A DNA stretch of 23,789 nt from a virus, in IMG/VR virus record IMGVR_UViG_3300017757_000163, positions 1 to 23,789 of that record. The stretch is one strand, 5' to 3'. The notes beneath the pieces were generated by a model. That model saw only the letters and a program-made list of their open reading frames with translations. It made no database searches and was not told where the DNA came from. The stretch's first letter is position 1. The number at the start of each line of letters is the position of its first letter. Positions 7,733-13,167 of the stretch are shown here, in pieces. A program made the position numbers and the translations under genes.

Positions 7733-7910
7733 TGACATCCTCCAGTTGGGTTTTCAAATAAAGTCTAACAAAAGATTCAGGAAATTCCTCGCCATGTTTT
7801 AACATTAAGTGCAGCGCATCTTCTTGCATTTCATCACTGACATCTTCAAACCCACAATAAATAGTGGAGTAATAAAGAATATGATTACACATGTCTATAA
7901 GGTTTTGCAT
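7719..7910 (-). CDS. Hypothetical protein, 63 aa
   Basis: An unrecognised 63-residue acidic protein, predicted to be mostly helical (a segment around residues 23-40 with DEMQEDALHLMLKHG). It starts at the ATG at 7910 in a TAATG overlap with the HTH gene before it, with GAGG about nine bases upstream. There is no membrane segment or motif. It forms part of the small-gene run. Confidence 0.65.
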   Translation of the reverse strand: MQNLIDMCNHILYYSTIYCGFEDVSDEMQEDALHLMLKHGEEFPESFVRLYLKTQLEDVNECY

Positions 7911-8143
7911 TAAGGATCGCCTCTATCTATACCTGAGTTTTTCACAATACGATTAACAGTGGAGGCAGCAAGATTTAATTTATTACAAATTTTAACTTGG
8001 CGATACCCTTCCCTGTGTAGTTTTAAAACACGAACAGTATTTACTGTAGGTGAGGTCTGTCTTCCGATAGGCCAGTACCTATTGATAAATATGTTATCAA
8101 GATTACGTTGACAATTAATAGCTTTATAAAACATTGAACTCAC
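7910..8143 (-). CDS. Small helix-turn-helix protein
   Basis: A 77-residue protein whose residues 34-70 form a clear helix-turn-helix of the resolvase/transposase type: TVRVLKLHREGYRQVKICN followed by LAASTVNRIVKNSG. No catalytic recombinase domain is attached, so it is likely a DNA-binding regulator rather than an enzyme; the binding site is unknown. It starts at GTG 8143 with AAGGA six bases upstream and overlaps the previous stop by four bases. It is the only small gene of this cluster with a recognisable fold and is the best candidate in the left arm for a transcription regulator of the phage promoters. Confidence 0.75.
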   Translation of the reverse strand: MSSMFYKAINCQRNLDNIFINRYWPIGRQTSPTVNTVRVLKLHREGYRQVKICNKLNLAASTVNRIVKNSGIDRGDP

Positions 8144-8911: not shown

Positions 8912-9868
8912 TTAGGCTGCCATTGGGAACTTTGCTATTACTTGTTGTACCTTTTCAGATTTCTTGACTTGAGCCACTGGAATGTCTCTTGTATTCTTTC
9001 GAGTACCTACATGATGGCTTGACCAATCAGTCAAAGCATTGTAGACAGCCCAGTAAGTTCCACCCATTGTTGGCTTGTATCTTCCATTGTATTGGTGCCA
9101 AGCATAAACCAAAGAAGAATTATTATAGGCCGTCGGCATAGCCATGATTGAATAAGTATCCTCACCTTCTTTTAATTTACCAAGTGCAAACTTAGAACCT
9201 GTCGCCTCTGCAATATAACTAAAGGCTTCTTTGCGACCAACAGGAGTATTAGACCACTCAGCCCAGATCTCATTTTGAGTATCGAGGATACTCATTATCT
9301 TATTCATTTGGTGAGCGCCTTGATCCACACTGAGCTTGTTGGTATGTCGAGCTTTGTAGATTCCAGCGGTCTGCCCAAGGAATACTTGATGGTTTGTGCA
9401 AGCATTTTGCAATGCTCCAACAGTCGCTTGGTAGGGCCATACAGAATTGAATGAATTGATGTGGAGCATCTCAAGAATAGCCGTGTCGCCATCGGGAGTT
9501 GTGATCTCATGGTTAGGCAACTGATGCCGCACAAAACAAACTGCACCATCATCTCCCACTTGAATAGTTTCTTTAATGTTCCGAAGGCTCAAGTTGCTGC
9601 GCTCCAATACATTACGAGCAGTGTCAATCATTTTAGTATGTGACACTGGCTTGTAGCGGTCGCCGTGGATAGCCAGAGCATCGCCGGTATCTTCGCGGTA
9701 GTAAACATGCTTACCCTCAAGTTTAAGTATACCACCAAATTTATCTGTGCCGCTTGCCTTATATAATACTGGCGTAGAGACAACTTCAAAGTCTGCTTCG
9801 CCGTATCCAGCATTTCGCAGATTATCAACTTCTGAATTGTTTCCAAACAAAAAACTAACTGTGTTCAT
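8912..9868 (-). CDS. DUF932 family protein
   Basis: A 318-residue protein of the DUF932 (phage/plasmid-like, TIGR03299-type) family, which is widespread on phages and plasmids and has no proven function. Recognisable family features are VVSTPVLYKASG near residues 29-40, DALAIHGDRYKPVSH near 62-76, the central FNSVWPYQATVGALQNACTNH stretch with its conserved CTN, and the C-terminal TYWAVYNALTDWSSH segment. Its ATG at 9868 has AGGAG five bases upstream. It has its own promoter (10029-10057), a hairpin at the 5' end of the mRNA and a leader of about 150 bases, so it is the first gene of its transcript and probably strongly expressed. Confidence 0.85.
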   Translation of the reverse strand: MNTVSFLFGNNSEVDNLRNAGYGEADFEVVSTPVLYKASGTDKFGGILKLEGKHVYYREDTGDALAIHGDRYKPVSHTKMIDTARNVLERSNLSLRNIKETIQVGDDGAVCFVRHQLPNHEITTPDGDTAILEMLHINSFNSVWPYQATVGALQNACTNHQVFLGQTAGIYKARHTNKLSVDQGAHQMNKIMSILDTQNEIWAEWSNTPVGRKEAFSYIAEATGSKFALGKLKEGEDTYSIMAMPTAYNNSSLVYAWHQYNGRYKPTMGGTYWAVYNALTDWSSHHVGTRKNTRDIPVAQVKKSEKVQQVIAKFPMAA

Positions 9869-9975: not shown

Positions 9976-10025
9976 CCCTAGAAAAACTAGGAAGGTCGTA
10001 AGACCTCCTTCCTAGTTTTCTAGGG
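9976..10025. repeat. Bulged hairpin with GTCGTAAGAC apex, copy 1
   Basis: An inverted repeat with a 22-base left arm (9976-9997), a GTAA loop and a 24-base right arm (10002-10025). The right arm carries an extra TCC triplet near the apex, and the left arm has one extra A. The leftward transcript from the promoter at 10029-10057 would begin at its edge, placing the hairpin at the mRNA 5' end. It shares apex and bulge with the hairpins at 11061-11113 and 12050-12120. Confidence 0.85.
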
Positions 10026-10057: not shown

Positions 10058-10863
10058 GCGACCAACTGTAAATTATTAGGGTCTGCAAAGAAATTCAGAT
10101 CGCCTTGCCCCTTGAGTCTTTCTAGTTTTGTAGATCCTTTGCGTGTTAATTTACCGACGGTGCCCTCCTCATCTAAAAATCTCAAGTCGGTGGCATCAAA
10201 GTCTGCTAACTCTACAGTATTACCAAACAACTGTATATTATTAGGTATCTTGAACTCGCCTTTGCACTCTTTAGTATTAAAGGATATTGCAATGTTGAGT
10301 CCAAGATCTGTAGCAGTTTTAAGTTGCCCAATAGTCTTGACACTATTTAATGATGCCGAAAATGTGAGATGATAGTTAGACAAAACATTACGAGTAACGC
10401 GGTGTAGAACCTTTGTGTAATCATAAAATTGTATGTTAGGCAACGATGCGATAAGATCAGTCCATACCACATCACTAGTACCGTTCAGTCTGATACAATA
10501 ATTGTCAGTCTCATTGCGTAGTATCTCGGCCCGTAATCTTTCTTTGAAACCATCAGGATCTTCAAGATATTGCACAGTTCTACGAGTCATAGCCCTCTGA
10601 GCATTAGACATTCCAAGTCGGCCCGAAGATCTAAGACAGGGTTCTTTACACCCAGCAACATCAGCATAAGCACATAAAGTATTACGCGCCACAAGATCAG
10701 CGGGTTGCAAATACAATATACCTGTGGTATAATCTTGCTTTTTAAAGCCTTTTAAGATCTTAGTAGAACTATTAAACCCCATTAAGGGTAAATTATAATT
10801 ATATATATACTCCTTAATAGGTTTAATAGTCTTCAAAGTTATTGCGTTTATTCTATTCACCAA
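10054..10863 (-). CDS. GP88-family phage protein
   Basis: A 269-residue protein resembling the gene product 88 family of phages, whose function is unknown. Visible features are a cysteine group (C64, C72, C76 in LCAYADVAGCKEPCLRSSGR), the RRTVQYLEDPDGF stretch, RLNGTSD at 125-131, FYDYTKV at 146-152 and HLTFS at 165-169. The cysteines suggest metal binding, which is inference. TTG at 10863 has GGGAG seven bases upstream; GTG at 10860 is an alternative. It overlaps the small gene before it by 11 bases. Its TGA stop is embedded in the promoter for the next transcript. Confidence 0.75.
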   Translation of the reverse strand: MVNRINAITLKTIKPIKEYIYNYNLPLMGFNSSTKILKGFKKQDYTTGILYLQPADLVARNTLCAYADVAGCKEPCLRSSGRLGMSNAQRAMTRRTVQYLEDPDGFKERLRAEILRNETDNYCIRLNGTSDVVWTDLIASLPNIQFYDYTKVLHRVTRNVLSNYHLTFSASLNSVKTIGQLKTATDLGLNIAISFNTKECKGEFKIPNNIQLFGNTVELADFDATDLRFLDEEGTVGKLTRKGSTKLERLKGQGDLNFFADPNNLQLVA

Positions 10864-11047
10864 AGGCTTTCTCCCATTCTTTAGGTGTTATTCCTGACAC
10901 TATAAACTCACGTTGATCATCAGTCAAATCTGGCATTGCATCTTGAATTAACATACCACCCTGCCAGTTATTAAACTGTTCATAAGTGATAGGCATATCA
11001 ATAATGCGACGAACACCAGTTAACATAGATTGTTTTTCGATCAGCAC
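10853..11047 (-). CDS. Conserved small phage protein, 64 aa
   Basis: A 64-residue protein of a type I recognise from many phages: an SMLTGV motif near the start, then a helix with YEQFNNWQGGMLIQDAMP, then LTDDQREFIVSGITPKEWE. The family has no function known to me. It starts at GTG 11047, five bases behind a perfect AGGAGG; the overlapping ATG at 11049 is out of frame and hits a stop at once. The gene lies 13 bases downstream (leftward) of the large hairpin at 11061-11113, so the hairpin borders its ribosome site. Confidence 0.8.
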   Translation of the reverse strand: MLIEKQSMLTGVRRIIDMPITYEQFNNWQGGMLIQDAMPDLTDDQREFIVSGITPKEWEKAFGE

Positions 11048-11060
11048 ATTATCCTCCTGT

Positions 11061-11113
11061 TCCCTTTTTAATCTTTAGAGGTCGTAAGACCTCCTCTAAA
11101 GATTAAAAAGGGA
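11061..11113. repeat. Bulged hairpin with GTCGTAAGAC apex, copy 2
   Basis: An inverted repeat with a 23-base left arm (11061-11083), a GTAA loop and a 26-base right arm (11088-11113) that differs only by an inserted TCC triplet next to the apex. The stem sequence differs from copies 1 and 3, but the apex and bulge are kept. The base of the stem overlaps the terminator at 11105-11125, so on the leftward RNA the two compete for the same UCCC and U-run. Confidence 0.88.
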
Positions 11114-12001: not shown

Positions 12002-12049
12002 AATCGTTTTCCCGATTGTGTAATTTTTCGTCGAGCCGAAGCCCTTCCT

Positions 12050-12120
12050 AGGTTTGACTATCTTTAAAATCTTCAGAAGTCGTAAGACTTCTTCTGAAGA
12101 TTTTAAAGATAGTCAAACCT
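12050..12120. repeat. Bulged hairpin with GTCGTAAGAC apex, copy 3
   Basis: The largest inverted repeat: a 32-base left arm (12050-12081), a GTAA loop and a 35-base right arm (12086-12120). The arms match perfectly except for one extra triplet beside the apex in the right arm, the same place as in the copies at 9976 and 11061. It lies 48 bases upstream of the start of the 11627-12001 gene. Confidence 0.9.
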
Positions 12121-12122
12121 TA

Positions 12123-12498
12123 TCCACCTAGTCCTATTAAGCCTAAGAAGGCTTAATAGGACTAGGTGGAAATGTAAAAGACCCCTTGGGTCTTTTAAAC
12201 TTTGGAGTCTGTTAGCTCCTCTTAGGAGGAGCTAGATGGACTTGGCAGCTTGGGAGTTAAATAGCTTTCAAGTTCTTGAAAGCTATAAAGAACTTTGAAG
12301 TTTAGAATAAACTTCAAAGACTAAAAAGACTTCAGTTTACTTTGTAAACTAGAAGTCTTTAAAATTCTCTGGAGGGTTCAGCCTCTAAAGTCTTCTTAGA
12401 CTTTAGAGTCTGGGAGGGATCTGCTTTAAAGTCTCTAGAGACTTTAAAGTATGCGCGGAAGAATAATGGAGTTTTCCAAGTTCTTTAGAGAACTTGGA
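12123..12498. repeat. Tandem array of nine inverted repeats
   Basis: Nine palindromes stand one after another: 12123-12170 (22-base perfect arms, AAGA loop), 12175-12197 (10-base arms), 12213-12234 (9, TTAG loop), 12261-12286 (12), 12293-12319 (12, GAA loop), 12325-12360 (16, one bulge), 12383-12408 (11), 12424-12449 (perfect 26-base palindrome) and 12475-12498 (10, TTAG loop). Stem sequences differ from one to the next, though words such as AAAGTCT and CTTTGAAG recur. With 12050-12120, more than half of the bases here are in stems. No reading frame explains them. Confidence 0.88.
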
Positions 12499-12557
12499 GG
12501 GGCCGGGCAGGAGGCCATACCCCCTACCCCCTATATATACTAAATCATATACATTTT

Positions 12558-12659
12558 GAACTGAAAGTGATGTTAACCAGTTTGGAAGGGTCTTCAAAGT
12601 CTCCACAACCCCCATATGAGCCAAAAGTAGTGTGTACCAGTTTGGGCGGGTCTTCAAAG
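12558..12659. repeat. Two-copy direct repeat, 60-base period
   Basis: Copies at 12558-12599 and 12618-12659 share most of 42 bases, including ACCAGTTTGG, two variable bases and GGGTCTTCAAAG. The second copy is followed by a further CTTCAAAG, and its end forms a small palindrome (12649-12662). Such repeats upstream of a promoter often bind a regulator or a replication protein. Confidence 0.85.
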
Positions 12660-12711
12660 ACCTTCAAAGAAGGGAGATATATATAGATATAGCCCCGGTG
12701 GGTCTATAAAT

Positions 12712-12740
12712 ATTATAGAGTTAATTTAGAGATTTGTCAA
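12712..12740 (-). promoter_or_regulatory. Consensus leftward promoter of the early arm
   Basis: On the minus strand TTGACA (12740-12735), a 17-base spacer and TATAAT (12717-12712), a perfect sigma70 consensus. Transcription should start near 12705 and run through the repeats and hairpins to the gene at 12001, giving a leader of about 700 bases. Confidence 0.9.
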
Positions 12741-12759
12741 GAAAAAACTTGACAAATCT
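12730..12759. repeat. Palindrome joining the two divergent -35 boxes
   Basis: Twelve-base perfect arms (12730-12741 and 12748-12759) around six As. Each arm contains a TTGACA -35 box, one facing each way, so one dyad element serves both promoters. Confidence 0.9.
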
Positions 12760-12777
12760 GTAAACTACCTCTATAAT
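12749..12777 (+). promoter_or_regulatory. Consensus rightward promoter of the structural arm
   Basis: TTGACA (12749-12754), a 17-base spacer and TATAAT (12772-12777), a perfect sigma70 consensus. The usual six-base discriminator puts the first transcribed base at 12784, the A of the small terminase ATG. Confidence 0.9.
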
Positions 12778-12783
12778 AAAACA

Positions 12784-13167
12784 ATGAAAAAAGAATTGAC
12801 AACGAAACAACAGACTTTCTTAGATTATTTAGTCGAGACAGGAGGTGATCCAAAGCAAGCAGCAGATTTAGCAGGCTATGCTCCTAACACTCATTGGCAA
12901 GTAACTAAAGCCTTAAAAAATGAAATAATAGATCTAGCCTCTAATATTCTAGCTCAATCTGCACCTAAAGCTGCCATGAAGCTTGTGCAAGTTATGGAGT
13001 CTGAAACACCTATGCCTCAAGTCAATGTAAGACTACAGGCAGCCCAAACGATTTTAGATCGCACAGGGCTAGGAAAAGCAGACAAACTAGATGTCAGTCA
13101 TAAGGTAGAAGGAGGGATTTTTGTGCTACCCGCTAAAGAAGAGGTAGTAATTAATGTTGAAACGTAG
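12784..13167 (+). CDS. Terminase small subunit
   Basis: A 127-residue protein with the features of small terminase subunits, which recognise phage DNA and load it on the large terminase for packaging. The N-terminal region (residues 5-33: LTTKQQTFLDYLVETGGD, then AADLAGYA) is a helix-turn-helix of the terminase type. The middle is helical (ILAQSAPKAAMKLVQVM, then RLQAAQTILDRTG), as needed for ring assembly. The C-terminal HKVEGGIFVLP matches the end seen in relatives and may contact the large subunit. The ATG at 12784 has no Shine-Dalgarno and coincides with the predicted transcription start. It overlaps the next gene by 14 bases and is followed by the large terminase. Confidence 0.85.
   Translation: MKKELTTKQQTFLDYLVETGGDPKQAADLAGYAPNTHWQVTKALKNEIIDLASNILAQSAPKAAMKLVQVMESETPMPQVNVRLQAAQTILDRTGLGKADKLDVSHKVEGGIFVLPAKEEVVINVET

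Follow-up and report, generated by a model that had tools for sequence, protein, structure and literature searches.

Probable signatures of DNA template switching in an array of ten near-perfect hairpins in the predicted early leader of an uncultured HMO-2011-type marine phage

The DNA analysed here, called the window, is the 23,789-nt stretch formed by positions 1 to 23,789 of the IMG/VR record IMGVR_UViG_3300017757_000163. It is a 23.8-kb piece of an uncultured HMO-2011-type marine phage, whose TerL shows 67% identity to that of Pelagibacter phage HTVC115P. The genes for primase/helicase and PolA are oriented leftward and those for terminase and portal rightward, and a divergent intergenic region of 782 bp (12002-12783) extends from the first leftward gene to TerS. 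Within this region, the block from 12050 to 12498 contains an array of hairpins and no plausible gene runs across it. TerS begins with an ATG at 12784, and in the clade of the window it starts 286 bp rightward of the array. Contig L014 (50 kb), which represents nearly the same phage (TerL 99%), was used beside the window.

Upstream of the divergent genes, two sigma70 promoters of the form TTGACA-17-TATAAT were predicted back to back, one on the leftward strand (12712-12740) and one on the rightward strand (12749-12777), both with a 12/12 match. The site of the leftward promoter is aligned in relatives, and its transcript is expected to start at about 12705. The initial annotation had assigned the array to the leader of a leftward transcript that it called strong; the position of the array downstream of this predicted 12/12 promoter agrees with that view. 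For the rightward promoter, the start is expected near the TerS ATG; if transcription begins at or beside this codon (12749-12784 for promoter and start), the TerS mRNA may be leaderless. The divergent promoter pair forms an imperfect palindrome (12711-12778) with 31-bp arms and the -35 boxes facing each other, and paired TTGACA boxes are also present in most aligned relatives, HTVC115P included. At the 5′ start of the predicted leftward mRNA, the sequence ATAGACCCACCGGGGCTAT (12686-12704) could form a small 5′-terminal hairpin, which seems to covary among relatives (GACCCC/GGGGTC, GAACCC/GGGTTC) and as RNA alone gives a weak fold.

The array consists of ten inverted repeats, H1 to H10, all listed on the leftward strand and near-perfectly paired; eight of them have 3-4 nt loops. 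H1 (12050-12120), located ~48 nt upstream of the first leftward gene, has a 30-bp perfect stem and the leftward-strand apex AAG-AAG-TC-TTAC-GA-CTT, and belongs to a group that we termed class A. It is followed by H2 (12123-12170; 22-bp perfect stem, 4-nt loop), H3 (12175-12197; 10-bp stem, 3-nt loop reading AAG on the leftward strand and AAA or TTT in relatives), H4 (12213-12234; 9-bp stem, 4-nt loop), H5 (12261-12286; 11-bp stem, 4-nt loop), H6 (12293-12319; 12-bp stem, 3-nt loop TTC), H7 (12325-12360; outer 9-bp and inner 7-bp stem, containing the recurring word CTAGTTTACA), H8 (12383-12408; 11-bp stem, loop AAGA), H9 (12424-12449; 11-bp stem, palindromic loop CTAG, three CTYYRRAG words spaced 9 bp), and H10 (12475-12498; 10-bp stem, 4-nt loop). 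The initial annotation had listed ten inverted repeats with arms of 9 to 35 bases; the number ten was confirmed, and the longest perfect arm proved to have 30 bp, not 35. Its statement that the hairpins are not copies of one element also held, as the stems differ and pairing is nevertheless near perfect. Mononucleotide shuffles of the region contained on average 0.19 such hairpins and at most two, versus the ten observed. In the rest of the 23.8 kb just eight hairpins reached an equal score, two of which (11061-11113 and 9983-10019) were H1-like and one of which was the promoter pair.

Searches for known counterparts gave no match of this kind. Rfam yielded nothing at gathering score, the sub-threshold matches being mostly miRNA-like hairpins, and no phage record matched the 782-bp region in a distant DNA search. 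The literature within our reach, which excluded most subscription papers, described no array like this in a phage leader, and the principal publication on these phages has none of the words hairpin, promoter, and intergenic in its main text.

Class A hairpins have the architecture stem-X-X-TCTTACGA-X'-stem', where X is a duplicated word of 3-4 nt and the stem sequence is free; an example of the apex is AAG-AAG-TCTTACGA-CTT, with TCTTACGA or a close variant in the centre. In the clade, 21 distinct class A hairpins were found, with AAG, AGG, AAGG, ATAG, or similar words as X, which was always doubled on the same side. The scan that detected them required the duplication of X, and an unbiased hairpin list still showed it in all long-stem hairpins with the apex. 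At every locus of known orientation, class A was found on the early-gene strand. Three such hairpins are present in the window, each preceding a leftward gene: besides H1, a second one with a 21-bp stem and X = AGG (11061-11113, leftward strand) directly preceding the leftward ORF 10853-11047, and a third one with a 13-bp stem and X = AGG (9983-10019, leftward strand) upstream of the leftward ORF 8912-9868. The sister contig G001 likewise contained exactly three. The form with X = AAG or AGG was found in 24 viral contigs, nearly all of them recognisably of this clade. In the RNAfold minimum, the long stem of class A is formed and its apex is nearly unpaired. Identification of the host through the motif was tried and rejected: the 19-nt class A pattern gave 35 matches (loci L162-L196) in 257 Gb of prokaryote genomes, a number of roughly the same order as the ~15 that chance would give at uniform base composition, and none pointed toward an expected host. 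Fifteen of these 35 matches were located in Methanophagales/ANME-1 contigs.

The distribution of the array was analysed by comparing IMG/VR loci, of which 80 were collected by TerL and 22 by the first leftward gene. Among the 63 loci with enough flank, at least four strong hairpins were present at the site in 10 and two or three in 8. The remaining 45 carried none or one, including some with TerL 85-94% identical. The initial annotation had considered that relatives lacking paired structure would refute selection for structure; such relatives are common, which tells in part against this selection, and at the same time the closest ones have a nearly equal number of hairpins in the same places and keep the pairing though the stem sequences diverge. 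L017 and L018 have a TerL that is 94% identical, a TerS that is 75% identical, and no array, which indicates that the TerL gene and the leader do not strictly travel together. No hairpins at this score were found in the isolates HTVC115P, HTVC103P, and HMO-2011.

Changes were traced among 16 distinct leaders adjacent to the first leftward gene, the comparisons being few and the leaders partly of shared ancestry. Leaders L131 and L133 differ at a single place across 560 nt, the replacement of AAGA by TCTT. Between the window and L118 there are six differences, three of which make up the exchange of TTC for GAA in the loop of H6, an inversion that is also present in L113 and L114. In L114, the loop AAGA of H8 is inverted to TCTT as well, and L029/L128 provide a further exact loop inversion with unchanged arms. 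Concerted changes also occurred in the arms, for example from CG to AT in H2 of L113. Ten arm comparisons revealed 18 double Watson-Crick changes versus 13 single ones, the latter including five G-T and four A-C mismatches. Ten of the 18 double changes were transversion pairs, which cannot have arisen via a G-U step. Both loop inversions and double arm changes were seen between phages that are 97-99% identical.

Mismatches and folding were then compared between the strands. A strict count on the leftward strand of 154 distinct hairpins gave 14 G-T and 13 A-C mismatches. A relaxed count gave 65 G-T and 144 A-C (62 and 92 in shuffles), a tilt away from a leftward RNA that may be explicable by composition and mutation skew. 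When each strand was compared with its own shuffles, the mean z was -5.8 for the left and -5.4 for the right strand, with the right strand folding better in 15 of 34 cases; an apparently better folding of the rightward strand had been seen with the shuffles of one strand and was gone when each strand had its own. Loops that flip, arms that change in pairs, a lack of wobble bias, and two strands that fold equally well all point to DNA-level template switching. Published hallmarks of such switching by polymerases are the homogenisation of arms and the inversion of spacers (PMC8604942, PMC8794818), and such events in yeast are favoured by high transcription (PMC3820800).

We lean towards the reading that the array is a product of template switching at the DNA level in the early leader, combined with class A as a strand-specific element. 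The process would begin in a leader rich in short palindromic CTYYRRAG words, often ~10 or 20 bp apart, where a replicating polymerase would switch between the arms of a quasi-palindrome and copy one onto the other. Such copying would perfect inverted repeats, preserve their perfection during divergence, and sometimes flip a loop. Class A, that is, H1 and the two further copies, would overlie this array. If template switching maintains the pairing, that of H2 to H10 needs no strand-specific selection of RNA, and the short hairpins may largely be by-products. We infer template switching as the cause from pairs of phage sequences; it is the best account of the origin and upkeep of the stems and does not extend to the confinement of the array to one block.

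A different cause is proposed if the leftward early mRNA was selected for a heavily structured 5′ leader, serving RNase protection, expression timing, or as a decoy, with compensatory mutation keeping the stems. The initial annotation had read the pairing as a sign of selection for structure and had named a decoy or exonuclease-resistant leader RNA among several possible roles. In agreement with a structured leader, the 704-nt leftward leader RNA, folded as that annotation had suggested, was far more stable than shuffles (z = -17.7), related leaders of different clusters retain pairing at corresponding positions, the loops are short, and a consensus promoter is predicted upstream. However, pairing alone does not show selection for structure when loops invert, when transversion-type changes form the majority of the double changes, and when the two strands fold equally well; moreover, a G-U excess on the leftward strand is lacking, the relaxed count even tilts the opposite way, and many relatives have no array. 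As an explanation of the array we consider this reading improbable, and RNA covariation as the sole cause of the pairing was rejected after the wobble, strand, and loop-inversion tests. The retention of a 700-nt leader in a compact genome and of hairpins in the same places and number in the closest relatives nevertheless makes some selection for structure likely, and a function of a structured leader is plausible.

The leader has further features at the DNA level. Positions 12200-12669 (no strand assigned) hold 13 palindromic CTYYRRAG words, all within the 700 bp before TerS, and the array is the centre of a local purine/pyrimidine pattern of ~10 bp. The words reach 18.6 per kb in the leader of the window versus 0.73 in the downstream part tested, and many relatives that lack strong hairpins have them at high density as well. 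The purine/pyrimidine alternation has a period of 9-10.5 bp at the array, and the ~10-bp signal had its genome-wide maximum in the array block in all six genomes scanned, including ones without strong hairpins. The signal is local, lasting two or three turns; a coherent array on one face of the DNA helix was rejected, as a jitter test was mostly negative at long range and longer spacings were flat in phase. The pattern may represent binding sites, or seeds or remains of template switching.

Between the array and the promoters lies a conserved core (12505-12558, no strand assigned) composed of TGGCCnCCTGCC, a G- or C-run, TATATATA, and a AAAATGTAT-rich stretch. A related core is present in the divergent region of HMO-2011 and CRP-1, where TerS is several kb away, which suggests that the core belongs to the early/late divergence and not to TerS; it may serve as an origin or in promoter control. 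At 12505-12540, some phages have a G-run and others a C-run (window versus L033), as if base-pair composition alone counted. Next to the core are two 43-nt direct repeats on the leftward strand (12557-12599 and 12617-12659) with 79% identity, the first of which holds CTGGTTAACA. The word CTRGTTWACA occurs at 12343-12352, 12571-12580, and 12759-12768, always on the leftward strand and twice with one mismatch, its count across the whole window being not above chance; TGGTTAACA also adjoins the core in HMO-2011 and CRP-1. The leftward ORF 7910-8143 (77 aa) in the early region gave a weak helix-turn-helix match and may encode a DNA-binding protein; as a binder of the palindromes it was considered and set aside, this domain match being what spoke for it.

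The block might alternatively be a site of DNA-protein interaction, either a replication origin or an operator array, in which an initiator or regulator complex would form on CTYYRRAG, an AT-rich core, CTRGTTWACA, and inverted repeats, the hairpins being secondary. The enrichment of CTYYRRAG, also in hairpin-poor relatives, the maximum of the ~10-bp pattern in all six genomes, and the core shared with HMO-2011 and CRP-1 are consistent with this possibility. The GC skew turns at the array region as well, but this turn is confounded with the divergent gene direction. Furthermore, HMO-2011 and CRP-1 lack a CTYYRRAG cluster, no initiator protein was identified, and since the ~10-bp pattern was not clearly coherent over long range, it does not imply a single DNA face. 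We therefore regard such a site as a rather doubtful explanation. A packaging (cos/pac) signal beside the terminase genes, as proposed in the initial annotation, has become very improbable despite the proximity of TerS in this clade: besides the distance of the HMO-2011 and CRP-1 core from TerS, the contigs that carry the array continue across the region and end at various positions, with no fixed end there. A reading of fixed genome ends in the region was dropped in view of these varied contig ends and of isolate records that begin at the start of their first gene. An array of guide-RNA stem-loops of the TIGR-Tas kind, which in phages and bacteria likewise comprises variable palindromes in tandem (PMC12045711), can practically be dismissed, because the Nop domain PF01798 was absent from the window and six relatives (seven records, controls positive) and loops of 3-4 nt are too small for two spacers of 8-12 nt. 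The packaging, guide-array, and known-RNA readings thus fail or are weakened.

Within the favoured reading of a template-switch array overlain by class A, a selected mRNA element is more readily seen in class A than in the short hairpins, given its orientation and its fixed apex. Class A probably acts in the leftward early mRNA, by control of processing, stability, or translation. A more tentative idea goes further: class A might be a new phage RNA element with a long free stem and the cap X-X-UCUUACGA-X', whose doubled X would permit either of two pairings. A protein of the phage or the host would recognise this element before several early genes, and the adjoining array would be a hot zone of ongoing template switching that remodels the early leader. 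Of all parts of the locus, the class A hairpins most deserve testing, as a separate candidate regulator of early genes among these widespread marine phages.

Covariation in perfectly paired stems usually passes as proof of selected RNA. In this array, arms vary in concert and loops flip among near-identical phages, and this compact natural example warns against using covariation in this way. The locus also offers a place for measuring template switching in phage populations.

The early mRNA of phage T7 carries RNase III processing hairpins that are long, have the sense orientation, and are located before early genes. Class A hairpins share these three properties and have a bulge-like asymmetry near the apex. 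They differ in that their stems are near perfect and variable in sequence, with TCTTACGA at the apex and the duplicated X being fixed. The ESAS of cluster K mycobacteriophages are also inverted repeats present in one orientation before several phage genes, but they have conserved 17-bp arms, pair poorly, and are linked to a 13-bp SAS, whereas the arms of class A vary and pair perfectly (PMC3203893). TIGR arrays resemble the present array as tandem variable palindromes that occur in phages too; here, a Nop-domain protein and room for spacers in the hairpins are lacking (PMC12045711). Repeats homogenised by template switching show the same identical arms, several compensatory changes at once, and inversion of 3-4 nt loops; they were described at single loci, in yeast genes or in rRNA and miRNA genes (PMC8604942, PMC8794818), whereas here about ten inverted repeats share one intergenic block of a phage.
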